A DNA stretch of 64,000 nt from Cellulomonas fimi ATCC 484 (lineage in GTDB: Bacteria; Actinomycetota; Actinomycetes; Actinomycetales; Cellulomonadaceae): the NCBI RefSeq assembly GCF_000212695.1, contig NC_015514.1, positions 1 to 64,000 on the forward strand, read 5' to 3'. Positions 38,295-54,761 of the stretch are shown piece after piece. The translations under genes and the position numbers were made by a program. Under the pieces are notes generated by a model that was not told the DNA's origin, did not search any database, and was given only the letters and a program-made list of their open reading frames with translations. Within the stretch, counting starts at the first letter, position 1. Every line of letters begins with the position of its first letter.

Positions 38295-38840
38295 TTACCT
38301 CTGCAGCTCGAGCACGCTCTGTCCCACGCGGACCGGTGTACCGGTCGGCAGGGGGATCGGTCCGTCGACGCGCTGGTCGGCCAGGAACGTCCCGTTCGTC
38401 GACCCCAGGTCCTCGACGTACCACTGGCCGTCCTGCGGGAAGACGCGCGCGTGCCGCGACGACGAGTAGTCGTCGTCCAGCACCAGCGTGCAGCTCGGCG
38501 CCCGACCGATCAGCACCGGCGACGTGCCGAGCGGGACGATCGTGCCGCGCAGCGGGCCTTCGGTGACGACCAGCCGGCGCGGCCCGGAGCCGCTGCGGGC
38601 CGACCGTGGCGTGCGCACCGGGGCCGACGGCGGGGCGGGTGCAGGCGTGGGCGCCGCGGCGGCCTCTGCCGGCTGGGGGCGCGTGGCAGGTGCTGACGGC
38701 GTGCCACGGCCCGCCCGGCGGCGGTCGGTGATGCGCGTGCCGTACAGGTCGCGGCGCAGCACGCCGATCGCCGACAGCACCAGCACCCACAGCAGCGCCA
38801 GGTACCCCAGCCGCAGCAGGGTGATCGTGACCTCACTCAT
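38295..38840 (-). CDS. fhaB: FHA domain protein FhaB (FipA)
   Basis: A phosphothreonine-binding adaptor recognised by PknA/PknB. The 181-aa product has an N-terminal membrane helix (about 7-26, LLRLGYLALLWVLVLSAIGV), an Ala/Pro linker and a C-terminal FHA domain (about 90-180). The domain contains VLIGRAPSCTLVLDDDYSSSRHARVF and EDLGSTNGTFLADQRVDG, with the phosphopeptide-binding Arg, Ser-Ser-Arg-His and Asn present. It ends GQSVLELQR. Confidence 0.95.
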   Translation of the reverse strand: MSEVTITLLRLGYLALLWVLVLSAIGVLRRDLYGTRITDRRRAGRGTPSAPATRPQPAEAAAAPTPAPAPPSAPVRTPRSARSGSGPRRLVVTEGPLRGTIVPLGTSPVLIGRAPSCTLVLDDDYSSSRHARVFPQDGQWYVEDLGSTNGTFLADQRVDGPIPLPTGTPVRVGQSVLELQR

Positions 38841-38849
38841 GCGCGGGCG

Positions 38850-39560
38850 TCACTCGTCCAGGTCCGGCTCGCCACCGGTCCAGAACTGGATCCGGGTCCG
38901 GCCGATCATGAGGGTGTTCCCGTCCACCAGCGTCGCCGCCGGCACGTGGTGCCCCTCGACGTACAGGCCGTTCGTCGACCCCATGTCCGAGGCGATGACG
39001 CCGTCCGGCGTCACCCGGATCTCCAGGTGCCGACGCGACACCCCCGGGTCGTCGACGATGATGTCCGCCTCCGAGCCCCGGCCGATCACCGTCACCGGGC
39101 CCGTGAGGATGTAGCGCTGGTCGTCGACGATGAGCAGCGGGTGCCGCGACGTCGGGGCCGTCGTCGACGCCGCCGGGGCCACCGCACCGCGCACCGTCGC
39201 GCTGTGCACCCGGAACCGGCCCGTCTCGAGCGCCGCGTCCTCGCCGAAGGACACCGTCACCGGCCCCACGAACGCGTACCGCTGACCCGCGGCGTGGTCG
39301 GTCACGGCAGCGGCGAACTCGTCCGCCATCGCCTCCGCGCCCCACTGCTCCACGTGGTCGTAGTCGGCACTCGACAGCTCGATCGTGAACTCGTTCGGCA
39401 CGACCGTCCGGTCGCGCCCCACGACGGCCGCCCGGTCGTCCAGCTCGCGGCGCAACGCGCTCGTCAGCTCGACCGGCTTCAGCTCGCTGCGGAAGGCCTT
39501 GGCGAAGGCGTTGTTCACGACGCGCTCCACGCCGTTCTCGAACTTGTCGAGGAAGCCCAC
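38850..39560 (-). CDS. fhaA: FhaA: DUF3662 and FHA domain protein
   Basis: A cytoplasmic regulator of wall synthesis that binds phosphorylated partners such as MviN/MurJ in mycobacteria. The DUF3662 domain covers about residues 1-120 (MGFLDKFENGVERVVNNAF). The FHA domain (about 145-236) has VIGRGSEADIIVDDPGVSRRHLEIR and SDMGSTNGLYVEGHHV. Start GTG 39560 is chosen because it lies five bases after an AAGGAGG site; a GTG six bases upstream overlaps that site. Length is 236 aa. The linker between domains is shorter than the long disordered one of mycobacterial FhaA. It is the first gene of the fhaA-fhaB-stp-rodA-pbpA-pknA-pknB operon. Confidence 0.95.
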   Translation of the reverse strand: MGFLDKFENGVERVVNNAFAKAFRSELKPVELTSALRRELDDRAAVVGRDRTVVPNEFTIELSSADYDHVEQWGAEAMADEFAAAVTDHAAGQRYAFVGPVTVSFGEDAALETGRFRVHSATVRGAVAPAASTTAPTSRHPLLIVDDQRYILTGPVTVIGRGSEADIIVDDPGVSRRHLEIRVTPDGVIASDMGSTNGLYVEGHHVPAATLVDGNTLMIGRTRIQFWTGGEPDLDE

Positions 39561-39818
39561 GCCCACCTCCTTGTCCTCGTGCCGCGCGGCCGGCGTGCCG
39601 GTCGGTGCCGCCGGGACGGCGGTCGCCGCCCGGTCCTGAGCGTCGATGGTATCCGTGCGGCGACCGTCACGGTCGGGTGACGGGGACCTTGTGGTGCGTG
39701 GACGTCGCGCAGATCCCGTGCCGGGGACGGGTGGAGGCAGGCGCCGGACCCTCCCGGGCGAGGGGTGTGCGGGGCCGGGTCGGGAGCCTCCCTCGCGCCG
39801 TGCTAGTGTTCTCGGCGC

Positions 39819-39901
39819 GCGCGAGTGGCGGAACGGCAGACGCGCTGGCTTCAGGTGCCAGTGTCCGAAAGGGCGTGGGGGTTCAAATCCCCCCTCGCGC
39901 A
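39819..39901 (+). tRNA. tRNA-Leu (CAG)
   Basis: An 83-base class II tRNA. The acceptor GCGCGAG pairs with CTCGCGC, the anticodon stem CTGGC/GCCAG has loop TTCAGGT with anticodon CAG at 39852-39854, the long variable arm is TGTCCGAAAGGGCG and the T-arm is GGGGGTTCAAATCCCCC. CCA is not encoded. A likely -10 element TAGTGT lies at 39804-39809. The mobile region begins a few hundred bases downstream, but I saw no copy of the tRNA 3' end that would prove integration here. Confidence 0.96.
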
Positions 39902-39941
39902 CAGTGGGGTGGTTCCCGATGGGGGCCGCCGAGTAGTACCG

Positions 39942-39978
39942 AAACTCCCGGTTAGAGTTCTCTGGCCGGGAGTTTTGT
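39942..39978 (+). terminator. Terminator of tRNA-Leu
   Basis: The perfect 10-base stem aaactcccgg/ccgggagttt has a 14-base loop and a TTTTG tail. It is one of the few here with a T-run. Confidence 0.8.
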
Positions 39979-40023
39979 GGTTCTCGGGGTGCCTCGGCGC
40001 GTCTGGAGGCGCTCGCGGGCGCT

Positions 40024-40060
40024 GAGAAGCCCTGCCGAGCGGGTCTCGGCAGGGCTTCTC
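40024..40060. terminator. Perfect 16-base inverted repeat
   Basis: gagaagccctgccgag and ctcggcagggcttctc pair perfectly around the loop cgggt. It is probably a terminator, or a structured end of the mobile region, between tRNA-Leu and the transposase gene. Confidence 0.65.
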
Positions 40061-40064
40061 GGGT

Positions 40065-40159
40065 TGATCAGGCGTCCGTGGGCCTGTTCGCGGGCAGGCT
40101 GACGCCGACTCGTCGGTGCGGTCGTGCGCGCCGGCCTGCGGCCGCGGTGATCAGGCGTC
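40065..40159. repeat. Direct repeat pair next to the transposase 3' end
   Basis: The 12-mer tgatcaggcgtc occurs at 40065-40076 and 40148-40159. A partial third copy, ttcaggcgtc, lies at 40164-40173 beside the transposase stop. It may reflect element ends; no matching copy was seen at the other side. Confidence 0.5.
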
Positions 40160-40172
40160 GGGGTTCAGGCGT

Positions 40173-41777
40173 CTACCCGCGGTACGGACGGCGCCGCCCT
40201 CTGGTCCACGTGTGGCGGTCCATCGGTTCAGTTGACGGTTCTTCGCCGAGCTCGACCTGCCAGGGGTCGGGTTGGTGCCGGCCGAGGTGCCAGTCGCGGA
40301 GGCGTTCGATGTTGTGCGCGGCGAGGGTCACGGCCATCAGCAGGGTGGTGGCGAGGAGGCCGGGGATGCGGAAGTAGCCGCGATTGACGTTGCGGACCTG
40401 GTAGCGGAGTTGCGCGTTGAGTCCTTCGATGAGGCTGCGGCGGTTGAAGGACAGCGCCCACCGGGTGGACTGCCAGGCGAAGGGCTGGCGGTCGCGCTCA
40501 AGGTCGGTATCGCGCACGGTGACGGTCTTGCCGCACGCACACGCGCCGCCCCTGGCGCACCCTGCGGTGGGCAGGTGGCGTCCCAGCCGCATCGACGCCG
40601 GGGTGTTCGGGCAGCGCAGGTGCCCGGCGAGGGCTGGTCCCTTCCACCGTTGGGTGCCCCGCTCGTCGTGGCGGCGGGCCAGTGGGGTGAAGCGGTAGGC
40701 CTCGCGCTTGTCGAACAGCTCACGGGCGCGGGCCTTCTCGGTGGCGGTGTCGCCGATCTTCGGCGGCTCGAGGTGGCGCAGGGGTTCGGGGAGCGCGTCG
40801 GAGTACAGGGCGCCGTCGATCCACAGGGACCCAGGGATCGGGCCGGGGCGCACGCCACGCTGGGTGGAGTGCAGGTCCATGGTGACCGTGATCCCGCGTT
40901 CACGGAGCGGGCGAGCGAGGTTCACAGCGCGTGAGGTGGTGTAGCCGCGGTCGAGCAGCACCTCGGTGACGTGCCGAAGCGCGTCGATGATGCCGAGCGC
41001 GGCACCGGCGCGATCCCCGACCCCGGGACGCAGGGCGAGGCCGGCCGCCAGTTGCGGGAGCGATTCCCCTTGTGGCTCGGGGGCGAAGGTGGCGATGTGC
41101 GCTTCGTAGCCGAAGTACAGCTCGGAGGGCCGTCGATCGGTGCCGGTGCGTTTGGCCCACCGCGCGTCGCCGTCAGGCGAACGGAGGGCGTCGTCGTCGG
41201 CCCTCGCGCTGGATGTGCGCGCCCGGTAGGCGGACTCGACGTCGGTGCCGTCGATGGCGACGACGCTCGGCGGTGTCCAGGTGGTGGGGATGCTGGCCTG
41301 CACGAGGCCTGTGGCGACGTCGTCGAGGCTCGCGGGAGTGAAGGGGCAGCCGTCCGGGCAATCGTCGACCTCGCCGGTCTGCTCGTCGGCGGTGAGGTCG
41401 TGGTCGTGGTCGACGAGGCATCCCGTCCCCATGGCCTCCCTGAGAGCGTGGAACCCGGAGAGGACTGGTCGGTACCGGATCACGGCGCCGGGCGGGAAGC
41501 CGAGCGCGAATCGCTCGCTGGGTGACACCGCCCGAATCGTGCGCGTGACACCGGAGATCGTCATCGCGGTGGGGCGACCGAGCGCGTGCAGCATGATCCC
41601 GGCGGCGACGGCGTCCAGCGGGAGCGCGCGGCGGCGACCTGTCGTGCGGATGCGAGCGGCGACCAGTCGAGTGATGACCTCGTGATCCGCCCACGCTCGG
41701 GCGCGCCGGACCTTCTCCGCGGTGGTCAGCGGGGCGGGCGTGTAGATGACGCGGCTGCGCCCGGTGGACGACGTCAT
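40173..41777 (-). CDS. DDE-type transposase (IS4/IS1182-like)
   Basis: A 534-aa transposase starting MTSSTGRSRVIYTPAPL. The N-terminal third contains the helical region EKVRRARAWADHEVITRLVAAR. The first catalytic Asp is in PPSVVAIDGTDVESAYR, the second in VLLDRGYTTSRAVN, and the probable Glu is in NRRSLIEGLNAQLRYQVRN. A Cys-rich insertion (HLPTAGCARGGACACGKTV) could bind zinc. It ends with a basic TWTRGRRRPYRG. The exact IS family is not certain without a database. The frame appears intact. Its start lies about 30 bases after the recombinase-like gene. Confidence 0.88.
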   Translation of the reverse strand: MTSSTGRSRVIYTPAPLTTAEKVRRARAWADHEVITRLVAARIRTTGRRRALPLDAVAAGIMLHALGRPTAMTISGVTRTIRAVSPSERFALGFPPGAVIRYRPVLSGFHALREAMGTGCLVDHDHDLTADEQTGEVDDCPDGCPFTPASLDDVATGLVQASIPTTWTPPSVVAIDGTDVESAYRARTSSARADDDALRSPDGDARWAKRTGTDRRPSELYFGYEAHIATFAPEPQGESLPQLAAGLALRPGVGDRAGAALGIIDALRHVTEVLLDRGYTTSRAVNLARPLRERGITVTMDLHSTQRGVRPGPIPGSLWIDGALYSDALPEPLRHLEPPKIGDTATEKARARELFDKREAYRFTPLARRHDERGTQRWKGPALAGHLRCPNTPASMRLGRHLPTAGCARGGACACGKTVTVRDTDLERDRQPFAWQSTRWALSFNRRSLIEGLNAQLRYQVRNVNRGYFRIPGLLATTLLMAVTLAAHNIERLRDWHLGRHQPDPWQVELGEEPSTEPMDRHTWTRGRRRPYRG

Positions 41778-41806
41778 ATGCGGCGTCCGTCGGGCGCGGG
41801 GCCGGC

Positions 41807-42772
41807 TCACCTCCGCACCATTGAGGCGAACACCTCGTCCTCGGGCCGCGGGGCCATGAACGGCATGACGTGGCCAAAGATCTTCCAGGAGGCGACGCCG
41901 GCGATCTGGGCGAGCGCCCCGAGGTGGACGCCGTGCTCGAGATGCTCCTTGACCCAGGTGACGCGGAGCCTGCTCGGGCGCAGCGCCGGGCAGTCGGGCG
42001 GGAGCTCGATGTTCTGCATGAGCCTGGACAGGCGCGAGCGGTCCCAATCGGCGGCGACGAAGCCCAGGAGCATCGACCCAGGGTCGGCCTCGCGGATGTG
42101 CTGCAGCGTCCGGTCGTGCGGTGGGCTGATCGGGATCGTGCGGGCCTGCCTGCCCGGCGTCGCCAGGCAGAGGTGGCCGTGCCGCTCGACGAGGCTGTCG
42201 GTCGTGACGTGCCAGATCTCGCGCGGGTACAGCCCGGCGCCGAGGCCGAGAGCCAGCAGCGACTGCATCCTGCGGCGCTGCAGGGGCGTGCGCTGAAGCG
42301 TGGACACTTCGAGGAGCCGGGCCACCTCGTCCGCGCTGTAGGGAACGATCCGCTGGTTCGCGCGCAGGCGCTCCTCGGGCGGCTCCCACGGAGCCTTCGA
42401 GGTCACGGCCGTGCCGAAGCGGCGAAGATCCGAGCGGCGCGTGGCACGCGAGGCCTCGGCCAGATGGGCACAGCCGACCTGGATGTACCGGCTCACCACG
42501 TCGGGGGTGAACACCTGCTCGCGGTCAAGCGGGAGCCCCTCACGGTGCACCCACACCAGGAACTGCGACAGGGTCCGCATCGCCTCGACAGCCCGGCGGT
42601 CGTCTGACGGGTGCACGTCGACGGCCACTGCTCGGGCGAAGTCGGCCACGGGCGCCCAGTCCTCAGGGGGCAGCGCCTTCGGGACGTACTGAGCGACGGC
42701 GCGGGCGGCGGTCAGCGGTTCTCGGGCGTGTCGGTTGACGAGGGCAGTTCTGGAATCTGAAGATGGGCGCAC
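41807..42772 (-). CDS. Tyrosine-recombinase-like protein lacking canonical catalytic residues
   Basis: The 321-aa product (GTG start, MRPSSDSRTALVNRH) has a tyrosine-recombinase layout: an N-terminal SAM-like DNA-binding helix bundle with FLVWVHREGLP, then a catalytic-like domain. Box I is seen as LALGLGAGLYPREIWHVT. The Box II equivalent reads PSRLRVTWVKEHLEHGVHLG, with Ser in place of the usual His of HxxR. The final helix IFGHVMPF has Phe where the nucleophile Tyr is expected. Only the first and second Arg are obvious. It may be an inactive DNA-binding partner of the transposase. It is co-oriented with the transposase gene, 29 bases apart. Confidence 0.75.
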   Translation of the reverse strand: MRPSSDSRTALVNRHAREPLTAARAVAQYVPKALPPEDWAPVADFARAVAVDVHPSDDRRAVEAMRTLSQFLVWVHREGLPLDREQVFTPDVVSRYIQVGCAHLAEASRATRRSDLRRFGTAVTSKAPWEPPEERLRANQRIVPYSADEVARLLEVSTLQRTPLQRRRMQSLLALGLGAGLYPREIWHVTTDSLVERHGHLCLATPGRQARTIPISPPHDRTLQHIREADPGSMLLGFVAADWDRSRLSRLMQNIELPPDCPALRPSRLRVTWVKEHLEHGVHLGALAQIAGVASWKIFGHVMPFMAPRPEDEVFASMVRR

Positions 42773-42897
42773 GAAAGCTCCTCACGAGGCGGGGTTCTCT
42801 TTCGAGCAGCGGCGGTAACCGCTGTGAAGGCGATCGGGCCGGGATGCCAGTCCCGGCCTCTCGCATGTCAGGGGATCGGCGGCCCGCGCCGAGCAGC

Positions 42898-43131
42898 TCA
42901 GGCCATGGCGTCTCCGGCGTCGTCGGCGAGGGCGGCCGCCAAGAGGTCAGACGCGACGGCGCTGACAGGACGGCCGGCGGCGCGAGCGCGCGCGAACAAC
43001 GGCCCGGCGACGGCCGCGGGCATGCGGATCTCCACCCGCACGAGCTCGTGGGGGTTCAGCTCGCGAGCGCGCGACGGCGGCCGGCCGGCGCGCGCCGCGG
43101 GCACGTGGATCGAACTGCCCGGCTCCTTCAC
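42898..43131 (-). CDS. Small ribbon-helix-helix-like protein
   Basis: A 77-aa product chosen from GTG 43131, eight bases after AGGAGGT. The segment LVRVEIRMPAAVAGPLFARA followed by GRPVSAVASDLLAAAL has the strand-helix-helix pattern of RHH DNA-binding proteins. It is Arg/Ala-rich and soluble. It sits upstream of the recombinase-like and transposase genes on the same strand and could regulate them. Family assignment rests on pattern only. Confidence 0.6.
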   Translation of the reverse strand: MKEPGSSIHVPAARAGRPPSRARELNPHELVRVEIRMPAAVAGPLFARARAAGRPVSAVASDLLAAALADDAGDAMA

Positions 43132-43578
43132 GTCACCCACCTCCTGTCTCGACGGCCAGCTGTGCGATGCAGATCTGTGCCTCTCACGAGGCGTCGCACG
43201 GCTGGTCAGACCGTCAAGAGGTGGATCGATGAAGTTGTCGCTCTGCGCCACAGGCGAGATCGCCTGAGAAGTGACCCGGCTTGCCGCACCGCGGTAAGGG
43301 GCCGTGCTCGCACGCTATCTCCGCCACGGAGCTCCTGGGGTGGCGACACGCCGCGCCTGGACGGCTCAGTCACCCTGTCGACCGACCCCGGAGAGTCCCT
43401 CTGCAGCCTCCTCGACGATGGCACCGCCAGCCACCCCACCCCACCCCACCCGACCTAGGACCGGAGCGCTGCCGGGAACTCGATCGACTGGCAGACGCGT
43501 CGCAGCACGCTGAGCACCCCCGCCCCTCGCTGGTGTGCCATCACGTGTAGCGCCTCACACCGCGGATACGCTGCCATC
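43132..43578. other. 447-base non-coding gap at the left edge of the restriction-like operon
   Basis: No convincing gene was found on either strand. It holds four CCACC units in tandem at 43431-43451 and probably the promoter of the downstream operon; TACGCT at 43567-43572, seven bases before the GTG, would give a nearly leaderless transcript. Confidence 0.5.
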
Positions 43579-44271
43579 GTGACCGCTACCACCGCCCTCC
43601 TCCCTGACCTAGCGGGAGACGGCGAGCGAAGCGACGGGTGGGAGGGGCTCATCAAGTCGAAGGCGCGTGTCAAGGCGCATGGCGAGGTATTCACACCTGC
43701 CCACATGGTCAACTTGATGCTCGACGTCGTCTCCGAGGAGCTGGAGACGGGGCCGGGCTTCGTCGACGCGACGTTCCTCGAGCCGGCCGCTGGAGACGGA
43801 AACTTCCTCGTCGCCATTCTGGGTCGCAAGCTCGCTGCGATCGAGACGCGCCTGTCACCGCGGGTATGGGAGCGCGAGTCGTTGTTCGCCCTCGCGTCGA
43901 TCTACGGCATTGAGTTGCTGGAAGACAACCACTCCGACGCGCAAGGCGCCATGCTCGACGTGTTCCTCTCCTGGCACAACCGTCACGGCACGGGCGTCAG
44001 TCGGCGCACAAATCTCTACCGCGCGGCGAAGTTCCTCATCGCGACAAACATTCGGCGCGGCAACACCTTGACCGGCGCGGCGCCGGACGGGTCTGAGATC
44101 GAGTTCTCGTGGTGGCACCGCACGTTGGGCAATCTCGTGGTCCGCGAGTCGTTCAAGTTCAACTCCCTGCGTGCCGATACCCCTGCAGTGGACCTGTTCG
44201 CCGCCCTCGAAGAACGGGTCGTCTACGCGCCGTGCCGTATTAACACCGTCTTCAACAAGGAAGCCAAGTGA
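43579..44271 (+). CDS. DNA N6-adenine methylase N-terminal half (motif I only)
   Basis: The 230-aa product (GTG start, MTATTALLPDLAGDG) resembles the front half of an Eco57I/Type I-like adenine methylase. GEVFTPAHMVNLMLD (residues 35-49) is the usual lead-in, FLEPAAGDGNFLV (66-78) is the SAM-binding motif I, IYGIELLED (108-116) is the motif II region and NIRRGNTLTG is the following strand. No NPPY catalytic motif is present; one occurs in the third gene of the operon. Its stop overlaps the start of the helicase gene (GTGA). Codon use is visibly less GC-biased than the flanks. It could be a subunit of a split methylase or a truncated relic. Confidence 0.85.
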   Translation: MTATTALLPDLAGDGERSDGWEGLIKSKARVKAHGEVFTPAHMVNLMLDVVSEELETGPGFVDATFLEPAAGDGNFLVAILGRKLAAIETRLSPRVWERESLFALASIYGIELLEDNHSDAQGAMLDVFLSWHNRHGTGVSRRTNLYRAAKFLIATNIRRGNTLTGAAPDGSEIEFSWWHRTLGNLVVRESFKFNSLRADTPAVDLFAALEERVVYAPCRINTVFNKEAK

Positions 44272-47200
44272 GTTCCTACACCCCCAAGATACGGACCTTC
44301 GACGAGGTCGTCCCGATGGTCTACTCCTGGACGACCCCCAGCGTCCTATCGCCCGACGGCACGACATTCCTCGAAGCCGCCGGCTGGGAGAAGGTCGGGT
44401 ACACCGAGGGCGACGTCGATGCCCGTATCGCTCAGCAGGCGTCGCAGATGGGTGGAATGGTTCAAAAGCGCAGACTCTGGGCGTACAAGGCGCGCTTCAT
44501 CACCGAAGGCGGCAGGTGGTTCACCGACCACGATTTCCACAGCTACCTGCGCCAGCAGGGCGTCAAGCGGTTCGAGGATCAGGGCAAGACTGAATGGCAC
44601 CAGTTCGCTGGGATGCCGAAGACCTCGCGGGAGTATTTCTCGGCGTTCATCATGCAAGACTTTGCCGTCGCCCAGACGGTGGAGCCGCAGGACTATAAGT
44701 TGCGCCCCGAGCAGCGGCAGGCGGTCGAGCAGGCCCTAACCGCGTTCGGGACTACCGTCGAGGGCAAAGAGGCGCTGTGGAACGCCAAGCCTCGGTTTGG
44801 CAAGACGCTGACGACGTACGACCTCATGCAAAGGATGGATGTCAAGCGTGCACTTATCGTGACCAATAGGCCGGCCATCGCGAACTCCTGGTTCGACGAC
44901 TATCAGAAATTCGTCGCCCACCGCACGACCTACCAGTTCGTGTCCGACTCGCCGTCGCTCGACAAGCGCCGTCCGATGACCCGCGACCAGTGGAAGGCAT
45001 ATTCCCTGGAGCACCAGGATCGCGACCCCCGCCTCATCGAGTTCGTCTCGCTCCAGGACCTCAAGGGGTCGCTATACTTCGGCGGGTCGTTCGACAAACT
45101 CAAGTACATCGCTGACACGCAGTGGGACCTGCTCGTCATCGACGAGGCGCACGAAGGCATCGACACCACAAAGACAGACATCGCCTTCGACAAGATCAAG
45201 CGGACCCACACGCTGCATCTGTCGGGCACCCCGTTCAAGGCCCTCGCCAAGGGGCGGTTCAGCCAGGACCAGATTTTCAACTGGACCTACGAGGACGAGC
45301 AGGCGGCCAAGGCTGACTGGTCCGACGAGACGCAGGACAACCCGTACGCCCAACTCCCGAAGCTCAACCTGTTCACCTATCAACTCTCGCGCATGGTAAC
45401 CGACCGTCTTGCCGAGGGTGTCGCACTGGACGAGGAGTCCGGGAATGTCGACTACACGTTCGACCTGGCTGAGTTTTTTGCCACCAAGGACAACGGCTAC
45501 TTCATCTACGAATCCGACGTTCGACGATTCCTGGACGCGCTGACGACCCAGGAAAAGTACCCGTTCTCCACCTCCGAACTGCGGGACGAAGTCAGGCACT
45601 CGTTCTGGCTTCTCAACCGCGTCGCCTCGGCGAAGGCACTGGAACGGCTGCTCAAGGCGCACCCAGTGTTCCGAGATTACACAGTGATCCTGGCGGCCGG
45701 CGACGGCAGGCCCAGCGCCGAGGATGGAGACGGGCTCGACGAGGCCGTTGACGACCTGGCAACCGCAGGAAAGTCGTTCGATAAGGTTCGTGAGGCCATC
45801 GCGAGAGCGGATGGCTCAGGCGGCAGAACCATCACACTGTCTGTCGGCCAGCTCACAACGGGCGTGACGGTGCCGGAGTGGACGGCGGTTATCATGCTCT
45901 CCAACCTGTCTTCGCCCGCCCTGTACATGCAGGCCGCGTTCCGCGCGCAGAACCCGCACACATTCGTCCGTGGCGATAAGGTGTTGCAGAAGAAGAACGC
46001 CTACATCTTCGACTTCGCGCCTGAGCGCACCCTGACGATCTTTGACCAGTTCGCCAATAACCTCGCCGCCCGCCCGCCCGTCGACGGCGTTGAGCGGCGC
46101 GGCAACATCCGACGGCTGCTCAACTTCTTCCCGATCCTGGGCGAGGATACCGAAGGCCAGATGATCGAGCTCGATGCGGAGAAGGTGCTCACTTTCCCGC
46201 AGGTCTTCAAGGCGCGCGAGGTCGTGCGACGCGGTTTCCTATCCAACCTGCTGTTCGCAAACGTCTCCGGCATCTTCCGGGCCGTGGAGCACTTCGAGGA
46301 CATCCTCAACCGACTGCCGGTAGCCAAGGAGAAGAAGGTCGAGAAGGGGACGCCCGTCGACGTGCCGGTCCCACCGCCAACCACGGATGCCGAAGGCAAC
46401 GTGCAGCTCGACTTCGAGACCGTCATCAACCCAAAGGTTGCCGAGATCGGTAAGCCGATCTACTCGAACGAGGACGTTCCCTCGCTCGACCCGGCGATCG
46501 TCAAGGCGGAGCAGGCTGCTAAGCAGATCGCCGCCGTGGTCAGCGAGAAATCCCGCGAGACCCGCGAGAAACTAGCCGCCGAGTACAAGATGAAGGCCAC
46601 GCGAGTCATCGCCGACGAGAAGGCGACTGAGGCGCAGGTGGGTTCGAAGGTGGAACGCGCCTTCATCGACCATCAGATCGCGCTCAATCACATCGAGGCC
46701 GAAGCAAAGCACGCCGCGACCGAGGTCGAGTTGAAAGTCCTGGAAATGAAGAAGGCCGAGGCGAAGGCCGACCTTGACGCACAAGTGCGCGCGATCGTCC
46801 ACGAAACCCTGGACACCATCACCGAGACCATCGTAAAGCGCGAAGAGACTAGGAAGGCGCAGGCGAGCGTTAATAAGACTCTCGATGCTGCACGCGACCA
46901 CCTGCGCGGGTTCGCTCGGACCATCCCAATGTTCGTCATGGCGTACGGTGACCGCGATATCACGCTTGCCAACTTCGACGACTACACCCCGAGCGACGTG
47001 TTCGCCGAGGTCACCGGCATCACCGAGGAAGACTTCCGCAAGCTGCGCGACGGAAGGGAGATCACGGACCCGACCACCGGAGAGGTCACACGTGTTCCCG
47101 GCCTATTCGATCAGGCAGTTTTCGACCAGGCGATGCAGGAGTTCCTCACCAAGAAGGAGGAGCTCGCCGACTACTTCGACCCGGCGCTGACCGAGGACAT

Positions 47201-47624
47201 TTTCGCCTACATTCCACAGCAGAATACCAGCCTCGTGTTCACGCCAAAGCCGGTTGTTCAAATGATGTGCGACGCCTTGGAAGCGGGAAATCCTGGCATC
47301 TTCTCGGATGCAAAGAAGACCTTCGCGGATCCGTTCTCGACCGCCGGGCTGTTCTGCATGGAGCTCGTCCGCCGGCTCGATGTGGGCCTGACCGAGGCGA
47401 TTCCCGACCCCGCCGAGCGCCTGGAGCACATTTTCACCAGGCAGGTTTTTGAGATGAGCCCCAATAAGATTCTTCATGACATCACACTGGAGGCTGTCAG
47501 CGGCGGCGTGCCCGAGCGGCGAGCATGGTTGGAAGACTCCGGGCACTTTCGCGTAGCCGACATTTCCAAGTTGAGCAGCCAGGAGCGCGAGGCGTTGGTT
47601 GACGAGATGCTGGGAGACGCCTGA
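44268..47624 (+). CDS. Restriction-type protein: GIY-YIG nuclease, DEAH helicase, coiled coil, methylase-like C-terminus
   Basis: A 1118-aa multidomain protein. Residues about 15-112 fit a GIY-YIG (T5orf172/MUG113) nuclease: VYSWTTP, KVGYTEGDVDARI (Arg53) and a final KTEWHQF (Glu109). The superfamily 2 helicase follows: LRPEQRQAVEQAL, Walker A NAKPRFGKT (172-180), DEAH (292-295), SGTP (319-322), GQLTTGVTVPEW and the Arg motif MQAAFRAQNPH. Residues about 745-880 are a long coiled coil. The C-terminus (from 991) has FTPKPVVQMM and DPFSTAGLF, a second methylase motif-I region, but no NPPY. The next gene starts one base after its stop. It probably cuts unmodified foreign DNA. The moderate GC content suggests transfer. 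Confidence 0.85.
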   Translation: MSSYTPKIRTFDEVVPMVYSWTTPSVLSPDGTTFLEAAGWEKVGYTEGDVDARIAQQASQMGGMVQKRRLWAYKARFITEGGRWFTDHDFHSYLRQQGVKRFEDQGKTEWHQFAGMPKTSREYFSAFIMQDFAVAQTVEPQDYKLRPEQRQAVEQALTAFGTTVEGKEALWNAKPRFGKTLTTYDLMQRMDVKRALIVTNRPAIANSWFDDYQKFVAHRTTYQFVSDSPSLDKRRPMTRDQWKAYSLEHQDRDPRLIEFVSLQDLKGSLYFGGSFDKLKYIADTQWDLLVIDEAHEGIDTTKTDIAFDKIKRTHTLHLSGTPFKALAKGRFSQDQIFNWTYEDEQAAKADWSDETQDNPYAQLPKLNLFTYQLSRMVTDRLAEGVALDEESGNVDYTFDLAEFFATKDNGYFIYESDVRRFLDALTTQEKYPFSTSELRDEVRHSFWLLNRVASAKALERLLKAHPVFRDYTVILAAGDGRPSAEDGDGLDEAVDDLATAGKSFDKVREAIARADGSGGRTITLSVGQLTTGVTVPEWTAVIMLSNLSSPALYMQAAFRAQNPHTFVRGDKVLQKKNAYIFDFAPERTLTIFDQFANNLAARPPVDGVERRGNIRRLLNFFPILGEDTEGQMIELDAEKVLTFPQVFKAREVVRRGFLSNLLFANVSGIFRAVEHFEDILNRLPVAKEKKVEKGTPVDVPVPPPTTDAEGNVQLDFETVINPKVAEIGKPIYSNEDVPSLDPAIVKAEQAAKQIAAVVSEKSRETREKLAAEYKMKATRVIADEKATEAQVGSKVERAFIDHQIALNHIEAEAKHAATEVELKVLEMKKAEAKADLDAQVRAIVHETLDTITETIVKREETRKAQASVNKTLDAARDHLRGFARTIPMFVMAYGDRDITLANFDDYTPSDVFAEVTGITEEDFRKLRDGREITDPTTGEVTRVPGLFDQAVFDQAMQEFLTKKEELADYFDPALTEDIFAYIPQQNTSLVFTPKPVVQMMCDALEAGNPGIFSDAKKTFADPFSTAGLFCMELVRRLDVGLTEAIPDPAERLEHIFTRQVFEMSPNKILHDITLEAVSGGVPERRAWLEDSGHFRVADISKLSSQEREALVDEMLGDA

Positions 47625-47625
47625 G

Positions 47626-48678
47626 ATGGCCAAGAAGTTCGACGTCGTCATCGGCAACCCGCCGTATCAGGCCGAGGCGCAAGGGGAAGGCACGCGCGAC
47701 ACCCCGATTTATCACGAGTTCATGGATGCCGCGTACGAGGTGGCGAAGCAGGCTGTCATCATCACTCCCGCACGGTTCTTGTCCGATGCTGGCTTCACGC
47801 CGAAGGCGTGGAACGCGAAGATGCTCGCAGACGAGCACCTGACGGTGGCGCACTTTGAGCCGGACTCGAACCGGTTGTTCCCGGGTCTCACGGACCCCAT
47901 CAAGGGTGGCATCGCCGTCACCCATCGCGACTCGGAGCGCAAGCTCGGACCCATCGGATTCTTCACGAAGTCCCCCGAGCTGAACACTGTCCTGCACAAG
48001 GTTCTGGAGTGCGGAGCGACGTTCATCGACGCGGAAGTGTCGAGCGGTCGTGCTTATGCGTTCACAAAGGCGATGCACGACCAGCACCCGGAGGCTTCGA
48101 GCGTTATGTCGAAGGACGCGAAGTTCCGCGTCAGCACGAACGCGTTCGACCAACTCGCGTTCCTGTTCCACGAGAACCGCCCCGAAGACGGCGGCGAGTA
48201 CATGCGCATCCTTGGCGTGCACAAGAACAGGCGGGTGATCCGTTGGATTCGCAGAGAGTACCTCACCACCCCTAGGAGTTCCGACAGGTATAAGGTCGCG
48301 ATCCCGGCGGCGAACGGGTCGGGTTCGACGACCGATTTCTTCGGCGTGGCCCTGAACAAGCCGACGGTGCTCGGCCCGTCGACTGGCGTCACTCAAACGT
48401 TCGTCACCATCGGCTCCTTCGATACCGAGACCGAAGGTGAGGCATGCCTGCGGTATATAAAGTCCAAGTTCGCCCGCGCAATGCTCGGTATCCTCAAGGT
48501 GACGCAGCACAACCCGCGCGCAACGTGGAAGTTCGTTCCGGTCCAGGACTTCACGCCTGAATCGGACATTGACTGGCAGCAGGATATTCCAGGCATCGAC
48601 GCTCAGCTCTACGCCAAGTACGGGCTGGCCGACGACGAGATCGCGTTCATCGAGGCGAACGTAAGGCCGATGGAGTGA
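47626..48678 (+). CDS. Eco57I-type methylase catalytic half with NPPY
   Basis: The 350-aa product starts MAKKFDVVIGNPPYQAEAQG. FDVVIGNPPYQ at residues 5-15 is the motif IV of N6-adenine methylases, normally found in mid-protein, here at the very N-terminus. ITPARFLSDAGFTPKAWN follows as the next conserved block. The remaining part (about 120-330) would serve as target recognition domain, with YIKSKFARAMLGILK and NPRATWKFVPVQDF typical of Eco57I relatives. It has no SAM motif I, so it must complement the first gene or the end of the second. It follows the helicase stop by one base. Confidence 0.87.
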   Translation: MAKKFDVVIGNPPYQAEAQGEGTRDTPIYHEFMDAAYEVAKQAVIITPARFLSDAGFTPKAWNAKMLADEHLTVAHFEPDSNRLFPGLTDPIKGGIAVTHRDSERKLGPIGFFTKSPELNTVLHKVLECGATFIDAEVSSGRAYAFTKAMHDQHPEASSVMSKDAKFRVSTNAFDQLAFLFHENRPEDGGEYMRILGVHKNRRVIRWIRREYLTTPRSSDRYKVAIPAANGSGSTTDFFGVALNKPTVLGPSTGVTQTFVTIGSFDTETEGEACLRYIKSKFARAMLGILKVTQHNPRATWKFVPVQDFTPESDIDWQQDIPGIDAQLYAKYGLADDEIAFIEANVRPME

Positions 48679-48696
48679 CGGCGGGACGAATGCTAG

Positions 48697-48825
48697 TGAA
48701 CCGGTAGGCGTCCCGATCGTCGAAGTGCCAGCGTGCGCGAGCCTTATCGGTGGCGCTGTCGACAGTCTTGGGCGGCTCGGGGTCCCGGAGCGGGTCAGGC
48801 AGTGCGTCGGAGCAGAGCACACGCC
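48697..48825 (-). pseudogene. Transposase relic
   Basis: Minus-strand translation gives CSDALPDPLRDPEPPKTVDS and RARWHFDDRDAYRFT. The matching part of the intact transposase at 40173-41777 reads YSDALPEPLRHLEPPKIGDT and RARELFDKREAYRFT. No start or flanking transposase sequence is left. It is therefore an internal scrap of a related element, on the same strand as the intact copy. It marks the right side of the restriction-like operon. Confidence 0.85.
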
Positions 48826-48953
48826 CTTCCGGTGACCGGCCCCGCGCGTACACCGCGTTGGCATGACAGCAGCCGTAGCCCGGTGGTGCCGTTCCTGCGG
48901 CGCACTAGCCTGACGCTCGGCAGCACACCGCACTCACCGGGAGGCGAACACCC

Positions 48954-50051
48954 ATGCCGCTCGAAATGGGCGTTTGGCGCATCGAGAACGGTGAGCCGCG
49001 CAGGCTGCCGCCAATGACCGTCCCGACCGAGGCGGCGCTGGAGTCGCTCCTCGAACGCGACCCGTCCTTGCTGGGCGAGCGGCTGCTCGTCATCGGCCGG
49101 CAGGTCCAGACCCCACACGGCAAGCGCATCGACCTGCTCGCGATGAACGGGGACGGCAACCTCGTCGTCTTGGAGCTCAAGAAGGACCGCACTCCTCGTG
49201 ATGTCGTCGCACAGATCCTCGACTACGGGTGGTGGGTGTCTCGCCTCGACCGGGACAGCGTCATCGACATCGCGAACACCCACCTGAACGTCCCGTTCGA
49301 GGCAGCGTTCGAGGAGGTATTCGGCACACCGCCACCGGATGAGCTCAACACCGGGCTGCGCCTGACCATCGTCGCGACCGAGCTCGACTCCTCCTCAGAG
49401 CGGATCGTCAACTACCTGCGCGAGTTCGGCGTCCCCGTCAACGCGGTCTTCTTCACCTACCTCGACGACGGCGACCGCCAGTACCTTGCGCGGTCCTGGC
49501 TCGTCGAGTCCACGGAGCAAGCGCCGTCCGCGCCGGCCCAGAAGAGGGGCAAGCGAGCCGAGTGGAACGGCAAGGACTGGTTCGTCTCGTTCGGCGACGG
49601 CGGAGGCCGCTCCTGGCAGGACGCCCGTAGCTACGGCTTCGTCTCAGCCGGTGGTGGCTCGTGGTACTCCCGGACCCTTCGGAACCTCCCCGTCGGCGCC
49701 AGAGTGTGGGTGCACATCGCGAACACCGGATATGTCGGCGTCGGCACCACGCTGGGCGAAGCGGTCCGGTTCGACGAAGCCGAGGTGCAGGTTGACGGGC
49801 AGTGGCTCCGGCTCGCTGACCAGCAGCTCACTGCCGCATATCGGCACGGTAACCCCGGCCGGCCCGTCACGGACGACGAGGACATCGACGAGTGGGTTGT
49901 GCCGGTCCGCTGGGACGTCACCCTCGACAAGGCCGACGCGTTTTGGCAGAGCGGCATGTTCGCGAACCAGAACTCCGCCTGCAAGCTCCGGCAGGAGTTC
50001 ACGCTCGAACGCCTCGCCGAGCGCTTTCCGGACGGCGGCCAGAGCGAGTAG
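48954..50051 (+). CDS. NucS/DUF91-like PD-(D/E)XK nuclease-domain protein
   Basis: The 365-aa product starts MPLEMGVWRIENGEPRRLP. Residues about 25-100 fit the NucS-type nuclease core: ALESLLERDPSLL, QTPHGKRIDLLAMNGDGNL, VVLELKKDRT and DVVAQILDYGWWV. This gives Asp60, Glu74, Lys76 and Gln87 as candidate active-site residues. The C-terminal half (about 205-365) is a separate domain with EWNGKDWFVSFGDGGGRSW and DARSYGFVSAGGGSWYSR, resembling modules found in defence-linked proteins. An AGGCGAAC ribosome binding site precedes the ATG. Its place beside the restriction-like operon and transposase scrap suggests a role in defence, but this is inferred. Confidence 0.85.
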   Translation: MPLEMGVWRIENGEPRRLPPMTVPTEAALESLLERDPSLLGERLLVIGRQVQTPHGKRIDLLAMNGDGNLVVLELKKDRTPRDVVAQILDYGWWVSRLDRDSVIDIANTHLNVPFEAAFEEVFGTPPPDELNTGLRLTIVATELDSSSERIVNYLREFGVPVNAVFFTYLDDGDRQYLARSWLVESTEQAPSAPAQKRGKRAEWNGKDWFVSFGDGGGRSWQDARSYGFVSAGGGSWYSRTLRNLPVGARVWVHIANTGYVGVGTTLGEAVRFDEAEVQVDGQWLRLADQQLTAAYRHGNPGRPVTDDEDIDEWVVPVRWDVTLDKADAFWQSGMFANQNSACKLRQEFTLERLAERFPDGGQSE

Positions 50052-50176
50052 GCGCGCCCGAGGAGGTGTGCCTGGACCGCGCCTCGGGGTGTGCCTGGGG
50101 CATCGACCGCGGCTGCGGAACTGGAGGTCAGCGCGTTTCGGGAACCACCCACAGTGTGATGTCGCAGGACATCGGC

Positions 50177-50207
50177 AACAGGCCGGACCCTCAGGGTCCG
50201 GCCTGTT
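50177..50207. terminator. Hairpin terminator
   Basis: The near-continuous palindrome acaggccggaccc/gggtccggcctgt has a minimal loop and is followed by tcgtgttgttgg. It lies between the NucS-like gene and the minus-strand gene, so it can act for both. Confidence 0.75.
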
Positions 50208-50255
50208 CGTGTTGTTGGGCTAGGTGGTCGCGGGTGCGGTCGCGCGTGGTGGCCG

Positions 50256-50828
50256 TCAGGGCAGCGTGATGCCCGCCTGGCTCGCGATGTCCCGGACGAA
50301 GCTCTGGCAGCTGTATCGCGGGTAGTCCGTCGCCTGCGGCAGGGCCGCGGGGTTGTAGTGGTACGCGCCCGTGGCGACACCGCGCGCGGCATCGACCACC
50401 GTGCTCGATGTCAGGCCGTCGGGCACGGCGACCGGCTGGACGACCGAGTTGTCCTTGTGCGGGACCGCACCCCAGAGCACGCGGGGTCCGTCGGCGAGGG
50501 TCAGGTCGAGCTGGAACCAGCCCTTGTCGCCCTGAGCGGACGTGGCCTCGAGGATGAGCCACCAGTGCTGCTTGTGGGCGATCACGCCGTCCGTCTTCCA
50601 GAGCAGGATCCTGGTGACGGTCCCTTCGACCTTCGGCCCCACGGTCTTCTCCAGCAGCGCGCCGCTGAAGCGCTTCAGCGTCGCGGGCACGTTCCCGACC
50701 GCTCCCGGCTGGGCGGTGGCGGCCGGGTCACCGCCCTCGAGACCACGCTGGACGGACACCTGTCGGACGCGCGGATCGAGGAGGCGGGTCGCCGCCCGGT
50801 TGCCGGCTGTCCGCTGGACGAGCAGCAT
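50256..50828 (-). CDS. Hypothetical protein with eCIS-type N-terminal motif
   Basis: The 190-aa product begins MLLVQRTAGNRAATRLL. This matches the LQRTAGNxAVxRLL pattern common near the N-terminus of proteins linked to extracellular contractile injection systems and their cargo. The rest contains WWLILEATSAQGDKGWFQLDL and a Cys-His-less C-terminus with YPRYSCQSFVRDIASQAGITLP, not recognised. The frame continues upstream without a usable start (ALARSLGAAE precedes the Met), so the gene may be 5'-truncated. No injection-system structural genes are in the window. Confidence 0.65.
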   Translation of the reverse strand: MLLVQRTAGNRAATRLLDPRVRQVSVQRGLEGGDPAATAQPGAVGNVPATLKRFSGALLEKTVGPKVEGTVTRILLWKTDGVIAHKQHWWLILEATSAQGDKGWFQLDLTLADGPRVLWGAVPHKDNSVVQPVAVPDGLTSSTVVDAARGVATGAYHYNPAALPQATDYPRYSCQSFVRDIASQAGITLP

Positions 50829-51145
50829 CTCGGCTGCACCGAGGGAGCGGGCGAGGGCCGGTCCCGTTGCGACCGCTCTCGAGACGTCACGCTCGGGATG
50901 TGAGCGCGTCGGCGGTGCTGCACGTCCCGGTCATTCGCCTACCCGCGCGTCCTGGAACCCGGTCCGGACCATGGCGACCACTCTCTTGACGTGGGGCGCT
51001 CCTGCTCGACATCGCCAGCGTAACCGGCTGCCCGTGGTCGCGGGCCTCCGGCCCCCACGAGCGCTCGACCCGACCGGCGCGCATGCTGGACGTTCCGGGC
51101 TGGAGCACAACGGCCCGTCGCGCGTGCTCGACGTGAGGAAAGTCG
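50829..51145. other. 317-base gap between divergent genes
   Basis: No supported gene. The right end contains the probable promoter and the GTGAGGAAAGTCG ribosome binding site of the SRPBCC gene. The left end carries in-frame remains of the eCIS-type gene back to a TGA. Confidence 0.5.
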
Positions 51146-51922
51146 ATGACCACGAAAGTCGAGAAGTCGGTCCTGGTGAACGTGCCGGTGGCCGTGGCGT
51201 ACAACCAGTGGACGCAGTTCGAGGACTTCCCGCAGTTCATGGGCGGCGTGAAGTCCGTGACGCAGCTGAGCGACGACCGGCTGCAGTGGGTCGCCGAGAT
51301 CGCCGGCGTGAAGCGCCAGTGGGAGGCGCGGATCCTCGAGCAGGTCCCCGACCGGAAGGTCGCGTGGGCGGCCACCGAGGGGGCGACCAACGCCGGTGCG
51401 GTGACGTTCGAGGACGTGGGGGGCGGGCAGACCTCGGTCCACCTGTCGCTCGAGTACGAGCCGGAAGGACTGGTCGAGAAGGTCGGCGACAAGCTGAACG
51501 TCGTCGAGAACCAGGCGGAGAAGGACCTCGAGCGGTTCAAGGCGTTCATCGAGGCCGAGGGGTACGCGACCGGTGCCTGGCGCGGGTCGGTCGGCGAGGG
51601 TGCCGCCGTCGGGACGCCGGGCGTCCAGGACGCGGCGGCGTCGCGCGGTGACTCGGGCAAGGCCGGGGTCTCGGCCAAGGCCGTCGCAGCCGGGGTGGGT
51701 CTCGCCGCCGCCGGGGCGGCTGCGGCCGCTGCGACCCGGAAGAGCGGCTCGACCGACGACGTCGTCGTGACCGAGTACGACGACGTCACGCCCGTCGTCG
51801 CCCCGGACGTCGGGGTCACGCCCGTCGTCGACGAGGACGGGGAGGTCGTCGTCACGGACGTGCGGCCCGCCGGGACCCTGCCCGCGACCGAGGACGGGAC
51901 CGACCCCGGAACCCGCATCTGA
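51146..51922 (+). CDS. SRPBCC family protein with Ala-rich C-terminal region
   Basis: The 258-aa product begins MTTKVEKSVLVNVPVAVAYN. Residues 1-145 form an SRPBCC (START/cyclase-like) ligand-binding fold: QWTQFEDFPQFMGGVKSVTQL, WEARILEQVPDRKVAW and VHLSLEYEPEGLVEKVGD. Residues about 175-202 are an Ala/Gly-rich hydrophobic stretch that may be a membrane helix. An acidic Val/Asp tail with repeated DDVTPVVAPDVGVTPVVDED follows. Such proteins are common in actinobacteria and often annotated as cyclase/dehydrase. The ligand is unknown. Confidence 0.88.
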   Translation: MTTKVEKSVLVNVPVAVAYNQWTQFEDFPQFMGGVKSVTQLSDDRLQWVAEIAGVKRQWEARILEQVPDRKVAWAATEGATNAGAVTFEDVGGGQTSVHLSLEYEPEGLVEKVGDKLNVVENQAEKDLERFKAFIEAEGYATGAWRGSVGEGAAVGTPGVQDAAASRGDSGKAGVSAKAVAAGVGLAAAGAAAAAATRKSGSTDDVVVTEYDDVTPVVAPDVGVTPVVDEDGEVVVTDVRPAGTLPATEDGTDPGTRI

Positions 51923-51947
51923 CCGGGACCACCGGGTCCGGACCAGC

Positions 51948-51984
51948 ACGACGGCCGCCGGTGACGTGGACCGGCGGCCGTCGT
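51948..51984. terminator. Bidirectional hairpin terminator between SRPBCC gene and GH9 cellulase
   Basis: A perfect 15-base stem acgacggccgccggt/accggcggccgtcgt surrounds a seven-base loop in the convergent gap. Confidence 0.8.
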
Positions 51985-52022
51985 CGCGCGTCATGCCCCT
52001 GCCGACGAGCGTGCCGTGCGGG

Positions 52023-54761
52023 TCAGGCGCAGGGCGACCCGTTGACGGTGAAGGCCGTCGGGGCGGTGTTGGTCCCGCTGTACGAGCCGTTGAAGCCGAT
52101 GCTCGTCGAGCCGCCGGCGGGAACGCTGCCGTTCCACGGTGCGTTCGTCACGGTCACGGCCGACCCCGTCTGGCTGTAGGTGGCGCTCCACCCCTGGGTG
52201 ACCTTCTGGTCGCCGGGGAAGGTGAAGCCGAGCGCCCAGGACGTCCACGGCGTCGACCCGGTGTTGGTGACCGTGATCGAGGCGGTGAAGCCGTTGCCCC
52301 AGGAGTTCGCCGTGTAGGTGACGCGGCAGGCGCCCGGCGGGGTCGTGACCGCGGGGAGGGTCCGGAAGGCCACGGTGGGCGAGAGGGCGGAGAGCTGGCC
52401 CGCGGTGTCCTTGGCCCGGACCGTCAGGACGTAGTCGGTCGCGGGAGTCAGACCGGTCAGCGTCACCGAGGGCGTGCTCGACGTCGCCACGACCGTGCCG
52501 TCCTGCGCCCGCAGGACGTCGTACCCGGTGACGCCCTTGTCGTCGGTCGAGGCCGTCCACGTGAGCGTCGCGCCCGTCTGCGTGATCGCCGAGGCCACCG
52601 GGACGCCCGGCGCGGTGGGCGGCAGGTCGGCCGTGGTCCCGGTGGTCCGCACCGCGACGGATGCCGAGTCCGAGGACAGCCGCGCGTTGTTGCGGGCGCG
52701 GACGACGAACGTGTACGCGGTGCTGGGCGTCAGGCCCGTCACCGTCGCGGAGGTCGTCGTCGTCGACGCGACGACCTGGAGCGCGTCGCCTGCGACGCGG
52801 ATCACGTCGTAGCCGAGGACGCCGCTCTCGGGGTCGCTCGACGCCGTCCAGCTGAGGGTGACCGACGTGTCGGTGACGGCGCTCGCGGTCGGCGTGCCCG
52901 GCGCGGTCGGCGGCGTGGTGTCGACGGCCGGCGCCGTGCCCGCGTGCTCGGCGGCCCAGGTGGCGAGCCAGGCCAGCGCCGAGTTCCAGTTGATCGCGAC
53001 CTCGTTCACCGAGTACGCCTCGATGTGGTCGACGAAGCACTTCTGGGGCGCGCAGCCGGCAAGCTGGGCGGCGGCGATCGGGTCCTGCAGCTCGCTGTTC
53101 GGGCCGCCCGAGAACGAGCCCGGCGGGGCGATCGGCAGCGACGCGTCGGCCTGGTGCGCCCAGAACCGGTGGTGCACGTTCTGCACCGCACGCTCGCCGT
53201 AGCCCGCGATGTACGACTGGTTCAGCGGGTTGCGGCCCTGGAAGTAGTCGAGCGCCGCGTAGACACCCGTGCGGTACTTCGCCTGGCCGGTGAAGTCGTA
53301 CGCCAGCGCGAGCGTGTTCGCGTTGTTGGCCACCTGGCCGTTCGAGCCCCAGTAGTAGACCGCCCCGGCGTTGTTCGGCGCGGGGTAGGCCTGGGCGTTC
53401 GCTCGGGCCAGCGCGGCGTCGGCGAACGCGACGATCGCGGCGCGCGTCGCGGCGACGTCGCCGGCGGGGAGCCCGGTCGGGACCAGCGCGAGCGTCGTGT
53501 CGCCGAGCCCGCCCGTCCAGCCCCAGTCGTACCCGCGCTGCGCGAAGCTCCCGCCCCGGTACAGCGACGAGCCGGTGACGTCGGCACGGTACGTGTCGGA
53601 GCCGGTCGTCGCGTAGAGCTCGGCGGCGGCCCAGTAGAGCTCGTCGGTGACCGACGCGTCACCGTAGGCGCCACCGCCCGTGCTGTCGCTGTTCGAGGCG
53701 ATCCGGTTCGGGTTCGCCTTGGCCGCCGCGTACGCGGTCTGCGCCGCCGCCAGGGCCCTCGCGGAGAACGCGGGGTCGTACGTCTTCCACAGCCGCGACG
53801 CCTGCGCGGCGACGGCGGCCATGTTGAGCGTCGCCGCGGTGCTCACGGGCGACAGGAGCCGGCGCTGGCTGTCCCGTGCCGGGATCGTCGGGAGCGCCGT
53901 CCAGCTCTCGTCGTGGATCTTGTGGTGCACCATCCCGGCGTCCGCGCGGCCCGCGGGGACCTGCATGCGGAGCAGGAACTCGACCTCCCAGCGCGCCTCG
54001 TCGAGCACGTCCGGCGCACCGTTCGCGCGCTCGGGGATCGCCATCGTGCCGTCGGCGAGCGCCGTGGCGTCGGCGCCCGCGACGTGGAGCGTCCGCTCGT
54101 ACGCGTTCTGCAGCTGCCACGTCGCGATCCCGCCGTTGACGACGTACTTGCCCTGGTCACCCGCGTCGTACCAGCCGCCGCGCACGTCCAGGCTGTACCC
54201 GCACGACTGCCGGCAGGGCACGCTCGTGTCCCCCTGGTTCGGTGCCACGCCCAGGTGCCCGGCGGCACGCGCGTACGTGCTGCCGACGTACTGCTGCTCG
54301 ATCGTGATGCCGCTGCGCTGGTGGTAGAAGAACGCGAGCGCGTCGTACCGCAGCTTCTTGACCGGGTCCGCGGAGATGTCGAAGGGCAGGCTGCTCGCGC
54401 CGCCGGCGGACAGCACGTAACCCGATCCCGCGGTGTCGAACGTCGAGAAGTCGATGAGGTGGGTCCAGTCGCCGGAGAGTGCGTCCGCACCCCGCACGGT
54501 CGACTGCCCCGACGCGACGGTCGTCCCCGCGGCGTTCCGCAGCGTCCACGCCACCGGTGTCGTCGAGGTGCTGACCAGGGTCGCGACCTTGGCGACGCCC
54601 GGCACGTAGGCGACCTGGTTGACCTTGACCTGCGAGCCCGGGTCGGGGGCGGCGAACGCCGCCTGGGGGGCGACGACGCCGCACACGGCCAGGGCGGCGG
54701 CGATCGTGAGGGCGGCGACGCGACCCCCGCGCGGCCCTCGGTGGTGGGTGTTCCGTGACAT
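52023..54761 (-). CDS. Secreted GH9 cellulase: Ig-like, GH9, two FnIII, CBM2
   Basis: The 912-aa product (ATG giving [15 protein letters not shown]) has a signal peptide ending near AAFA (residue 37). An Ig-like CelD_N domain follows (about 42-130, [16 protein letters not shown]). The GH9 catalytic domain comes next, with [17 protein letters not shown] near 197, the His segment [13 protein letters not shown] and the general-acid region [13 protein letters not shown]. Two FnIII repeats (about 615-705 and 710-800) and a C-terminal CBM2 (about 810-912) complete it. This is the GH9 subgroup with an N-terminal Ig domain, unlike CenB, which carries CBM3c; the two cellulases are therefore complementary. 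The CBM2 runs from [14 protein letters not shown] to NGSPCA. Confidence 0.95.

Follow-up and report, generated by a model that had tools for sequence, protein, structure and literature searches.

A predicted DrdVI-type split methylase system in Cellulomonas fimi with one methylase half carried on the restriction protein

Three genes sharing one methylase core

The first 64,000 nucleotides of contig NC_015514.1 of Cellulomonas fimi ATCC 484 (assembly GCF_000212695.1), hereafter the window, hold three adjoining genes that almost certainly, judging from their sequences, encode a DrdVI-type split methylase restriction-modification system (Table 1). The parts lie in the order M1 / R-M2F / M2B, where M1 and M2F are two methylase front halves, M2B is a catalytic back half and R is the restriction protein. 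All three genes are intact; gene 1 overlaps gene 2 by four bases and a single base separates gene 2 from gene 3, which suggests that their translation is coupled. A sequence-only reading had described three coupled genes, of which the first has motif I, the second has a motif-I-like region, neither has NPPY, and the third starts with NPPY; it had placed the same overlap and gap between them. The open reading frame (ORF) and motif analysis agreed with this description, and the gene coordinates reproduced the spacing.

Pfam assigned gene 3 to Eco57I (E value 4e-14) and residues 143-323 of gene 2 to ResIII (1.6e-12), and a PHROG helicase family matched residues 138-593 of gene 2 (2.5e-26). The motor of gene 2 carries PRFGKT (residue 175), DEAH (residue 292), SGTPF and QLTTGVTVPEW. 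The N-terminus of the window's gene 2 had no Pfam match at E values up to 1, and its GIY-YIG assignment is made through relatives, since it is these that match: seven of nine passed the T5orf172 cut-off and four of nine the MUG113 cut-off. The GIY-YIG/DEAH protein proposed by the sequence-only reading is thus supported, the motor directly and the nuclease by way of the relatives. The labels motif X, I and II follow the usual methylase numbering.

Table 1. Positions of the three genes and their main features in the window
Feature	Positions	Strand	Remarks
Gene 1, M1, SAM-type (S-adenosylmethionine) front half	43579..44271	+	GTG start, 230 aa; no NPPY
Gene 1 motif X, GEVFTP	43681-43698	+	aa 35
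Gene 1 motif I, FLEPAAGDGNF	43774-43806	+	aa 66
Gene 1 motif II, YGIELLEDN	43903-43929	+	motif scan
Gene 2, R-M2F fusion: GIY-YIG-like nuclease, superfamily 2 (SF2) translocase, linker, methylase front half	44268..47624	+	GTG start, 1118 aa
Gene 2 GIY-YIG (T5orf172/MUG113-like) domain	44319..44606	+	about aa 18-113; alignment to relatives
Gene 2 ResIII-type SF2 helicase/translocase	44694..46187	+	about aa 143-640; Pfam, PHROG, motifs
Gene 2 M2F, second front half at C-terminus	47157..47621	+	35% identity to M2 of pDrdVI
Gene 2 LVFTPK	47232-47249	+	aa 989; M2F motif X region
Gene 2 FADPFSTAGLF	47322-47354	+	aa 1019; M2F motif-I-like region
Gene 3, M2B, catalytic back half and presumed target recognition region	47626..48678	+	ATG start, 350 aa
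Gene 3 NPPY	47656-47667	+	residue 11; FDVVIGNPPYQ from aa 5

Two front halves, one back half and the kinship with DrdVI

M1 and M2F are homologous to each other (hhalign probability 97.3, E value 1.7e-11, 115 columns), which bears out the idea of a duplicated front half in a single m6A-type (N6-methyladenine) methylase core divided among three genes. What distinguishes the two front halves is their SAM motifs, which were counted in unique sequences scoring at least 120 bits (M1, M2F) or at least 250 bits (M2B); copies that score lower or are degenerate, among them the M2F of loci L028 and L033 and the short M1 sequences of phages, lie outside these counts. In M1, the Glu and first Gly of motif I are present in 155 of 155 sequences, as is the acidic residue of motif II. 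In M2F, the first Gly of motif I is replaced in all 154 sequences, by Lys (141) or Thr (13), and so is the motif II acid, by Ala (121), Gly (19) or Ser (14). M2F retains the Thr of motif X (153/154), the Asp of motif I (153/154) and the last Gly of motif I (154/154). The NPPY motif of M2B has Asn in all 149 rows that cover it, and it ends in Tyr (149 rows) or Phe (one row). Because both SAM hallmarks are gone in every relative scored, the motif I of M2F does not look like a working copy, and a replacement this uniform in different phyla looks more like the outcome of selection than of drift. The new element here is that the front half on gene 2 lacks both hallmarks in all relatives scored, whereas that of gene 1 keeps both. 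M1 rows themselves fall into two kinds, EPxxGxG, to which the window and DrdVI belong, and EITCGEAP, which has a longer N-terminus.

The NPPY half occurs fused to an M1 front half or to an M2F front half, and M1 and M2B are found without a detected M2F in loci L123 and L130 and in phage PTm1, where the pair is gp277 and gp279. A search of the viral contigs for further M1-M2B chains like that of L130 returned L130 alone.

The closest described relative is DrdVI. Plasmid pDrdVI of Deinococcus wulumuqiensis NEB 479 encodes M1 (212 aa), M2 (539 aa) and R (851 aa). Gene 1 is 40% identical to M1 over 200 aa (4e-36); residues 38-662 of gene 2 are 31% identical to R over 703 aligned columns (7e-76), while residues 977-1061 match M2 residues 17-107 (35% identity, 6e-12); and gene 3 matches M2 residues 202-535 (27% identity, 2e-31). 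M1-2.DrdVI, which is entered as IIG, was cloned in Escherichia coli and was assigned to GCAGCC with 6mA (likewise N6-methyladenine) as its product (PMC6430315). One account describes DrdVI as a translocase fused to a restriction endonuclease alongside M1 and M2 and points to a GIY-YIG relative in Bibersteinia (PMC4996451), and Blow et al. describe Type IIG-like systems as coming in many permutations (PMC4752239). The modules are the same in DrdVI and in the window: M1, the front of M2, the back of M2 with a recognition region, and the GIY-YIG/translocase protein. Split methylases as such are therefore already known, and the window is a variant rather than a copy of the DrdVI layout because its M2 front half sits on gene 2. 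In DrdVI both M2 halves form one 539 aa chain with R apart, and the cloned methylase consisted of M1 and M2; in the window the NPPY half stands alone and the restriction protein carries a structural part of the methylase. The DrdVI layout also differs in its M2F, which has a Cys/His set (C123, H151, C158, C161) that is absent from the window's M2F. This zinc-ribbon-like set is invariant in 33 M2 chains of that layout (L128 and 32 others).

MaeIV of Methanococcus aeolicus (M1-M2, GCACY, m6A) is another published split methylase, set beside the window here by its description. The sequence-only reading had taken Type ISP enzymes as the nearest kin, and the DrdVI/MaeIV family proved closer. The window does share with Type ISP an SF2 motor, an adenine methylase and a recognition region (ResIII, Eco57I, and a fold match of the M2F-M2B relative L128). 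However, LlaBIII and LlaGI are single chains with an Mrr-family nuclease according to PMC4666363, whereas the window has three chains, a GIY-YIG-like nuclease and an extra front half. Membership of Type ISP is ruled out by the three genes in place of a single polypeptide and by the nuclease: there was no Mrr match among the Pfam hits of the window, and the gene 2 N-terminus groups with the T5orf172/MUG113 GIY-YIG relatives.

The search against defence-system models that the sequence-only reading had proposed gave matches in PADLOC. PDLC03626 (REase_MTase_IIG, 1359 aa) has partial matches to gene 2 (6e-14) and gene 3 (4e-21), and PDLC03375 (MTase_II, 348 aa) matches gene 3 (2.7e-23); PADLOC files the former under Type IIG and the latter under Type II. 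Gene 1 drew weak, generic methylase matches alone, the best at 1e-8. A few methylome papers mention DrdVI-type split methylases by name, and a literature search, with REBASE and most subscription papers outside its reach, found no account of how they work.

Recurrence and chain layouts

The survey recovered split systems from several phyla as well as from plasmids and viral contigs, with five or more chain layouts among them, and profile readings of the loci recovered all of the window's modules in relatives. Gene 2 had matches at 1e-20 in 19 of 297 genomes of the window's taxonomic order, its own included, 11 of these covering only part of gene 2. Matches to gene 2 were also present in 83 plasmid records. 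At 1e-12, M1 had matches in 15 of 296 genomes of the window's phylum, its own included, and in 7 of 299 genomes of the phylum around a relative, G297, which is itself counted.

Layouts were read with profiles for GIY, motor, M1, M2F and M2B, and nuclease domains were disregarded in naming them. The scan of genome contigs by helicase patterns kept 80 of at least 574 relatives, and viral contigs were picked up by M1 or helicase patterns. The input to the layout tree was 209 loci with exactly one motor ORF, of which the 47 with other or incomplete layouts were dropped except for two kept as 'x'; removal of identical, near-identical and short loci then left 121 non-redundant loci on a motor tree, built with FastTree only. 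Layout C (M1 / M2F-M2B / R), that of DrdVI, accounts for 32 of these and forms one clade. Layout E (M1-M2B fused / R-M2F) accounts for 31, layout D (M1 / M2B / R-M2F) for 25, layout A (M1 / R-M2F / M2B), that of the window, for 17, and layout B (M1 / R-M2F-M2B) for 7. Layouts G and F, in which the motor and M2B share a chain without a detected M2F and M1 lies before or after, account for 4 and 3, and the remaining two loci have other layouts. Layouts D and E switch repeatedly, with at least nine changes each forced by the starred branches of the tree. The sequence-only reading had asked after homologues with one methylase gene, and layout E does join the counterparts of genes 1 and 3 in one methylase-like chain; it is not the product of a mere local frameshift, since the adjoining gene 2 still has its own front half.

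Thirteen layout A loci form one clade with support of 100 (FastTree), comprising 12 actinobacterial loci, the window among them, and viral contig L210; in one member, L037, the nuclease part lies in its own ORF. The other four layout A loci come from Streptococcus, Lactiplantibacillus, Caviibacterium and Psychrobacter. The three-gene order does recur elsewhere. Relative to the nearest relative, Microbacterium testaceum L034, the ratio of nonsynonymous to synonymous substitution rates (dN/dS) is approximately 0.30, 0.15 and 0.24 for genes 1, 2 and 3, at dS above 1, values that suggest purifying selection on each of them.

Several loci depart from these patterns. The Lactobacillus R proteins of L028 and L033 have a long N-terminal extension ahead of the nuclease region, a divergent M2F missed by the profile, and M1 downstream. 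Most of viral contigs L152-L183 carry stand-alone M1-like SAM halves of the LEPxCGDGAF type, mostly 132-225 aa, and most had no ORF of at least 120 aa with an NPPY motif in the stretch examined. In six of them (L157, L159, L172, L177, L178 and L179), the M1-like ORF lies downstream of an ORF that contains an NPPY-type motif and measures 372-1237 aa, and these are perhaps more distant split systems. M1-like matches also occur in phages of Synechococcus, Prochlorococcus, Aeromonas and Vibrio.

Proposed division of labour and genomic setting

The best overall explanation, to which we assign a probability of roughly two in three, is that a DrdVI-type split system in the order M1 / R-M2F / M2B divides the work as follows. 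Gene 1 is probably the SAM half, as its motifs suggest, and would supply SAM. Gene 3 would provide the adenine pocket, base flipping and site recognition, and methylation of adenine in a short site would need both proteins. The M2F of gene 2 would tie gene 3 to the motor and nuclease and hold it in a restriction complex, whose translocase and nuclease would attack sites that lack methylation. Since genes 2 and 3 each encode a portion of the M2 fold, a restriction protein that carries a structural part of the methylase could keep cutting and protection in one assembly. M2F may be a natural pseudo-enzyme half, kept to couple modification with restriction. A vague notion of a split thereby becomes a testable division of labour between front halves.

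Structure prediction bears on part of this arrangement. AlphaFold predicted that the M2F and M2B halves complete one methylase fold, in support of a fold shared by the gene 2 C-terminus and gene 3, but it did not bring M1 and the gene 3 half together. In alignment A4, fused chains stand beside rows that hold M1 or M2B alone, and this mixture may have made the M1-M2B junction weaker. A search for solved relatives by sequence returned, for the M1-M2B profile, one type I M chain that matches the front half only, and none for alignments A5 or A1 or for gene 2. No single natural chain with all three methylase modules was present in the loci examined. The least certain step is how M1 meets gene 3. 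It might take the place of M2F on gene 3 rather than dock on an M2F-gene 3 core, a tentative proposal whose chances we put somewhat short of even. The fullest form of the idea is doubtful: one back half would serve two interchangeable front halves, gene 1 making it a methylase and the conserved mimic on gene 2, which lacks the SAM hallmarks and is fused to the translocase and nuclease, making it the recognition module of a restriction enzyme, with the front half that gene 3 holds setting protection or attack.

An alternative is that the true methylase consists of M2F and gene 3, its SAM pocket having changed from G-x-G to K/T-x-G, and that gene 1 acts as an accessory regulator, binding SAM but making no contact with the target base. 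This is unlikely, given the loss of the SAM hallmarks throughout M2F and their retention throughout M1, as well as the systems with M1 and M2B in which M2F was not detected. It is also conceivable that genes 1 and 3 form an ordinary methylase and that gene 2 works independently as a nuclease, perhaps one that depends on modification, with its M2F left as a binding remnant. M1 and M2B are indeed known without a detected gene 2, but M2F and M2B form one chain in layouts B and C and are predicted to complete one fold, and gene 2 should therefore bind gene 3, which makes its independence very improbable. Least credible of all is the alternative that the sequence-only reading had left standing, in which an ancestral enzyme of Type IIG or ISP, once a single chain, has decayed into functionless fragments. 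Some relatives are indeed disrupted: in Bifidobacterium longum (L024, 1166-3495) an IS256 element separates M1 from a gene 3 relative that lacks NPPY, L221 is broken into many ORFs and L037 has its separate nuclease ORF. Local decay is nevertheless disfavoured because the order recurs in relatives, 13 of them in one clade, and dN/dS is low in genes that are intact and retain their motifs; a decay or frameshift origin is contradicted by this conserved order and selection.

Returning to the preferred reading of a split system with divided labour, its genes lie in a block of distinct composition, with a G+C content of 61-63% at 44-49 kb versus 67-78% in the window outside 43-50 kb. The stretch at 38329-43317 is colinear with a congener (G935) at 80% and stops just short of the system, the low-G+C block beginning at about 43-44 kb. 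An empty-site comparison with this congener remained colinear to about 43317 and found no join beyond the system in the stretches compared. Upstream lie a tRNA-Leu gene (39819-39902) and ORFs that match transposase and tyrosine-recombinase families weakly; no attachment repeats of at least 16 bases were found at the tRNA-Leu gene within 39700-52500. Almost the whole of the adjoining gene at 48954-50051 matches PDC-S11, a candidate defence model of PADLOC (2e-149), and the gene also matches Pfam NucS_C (2e-6).
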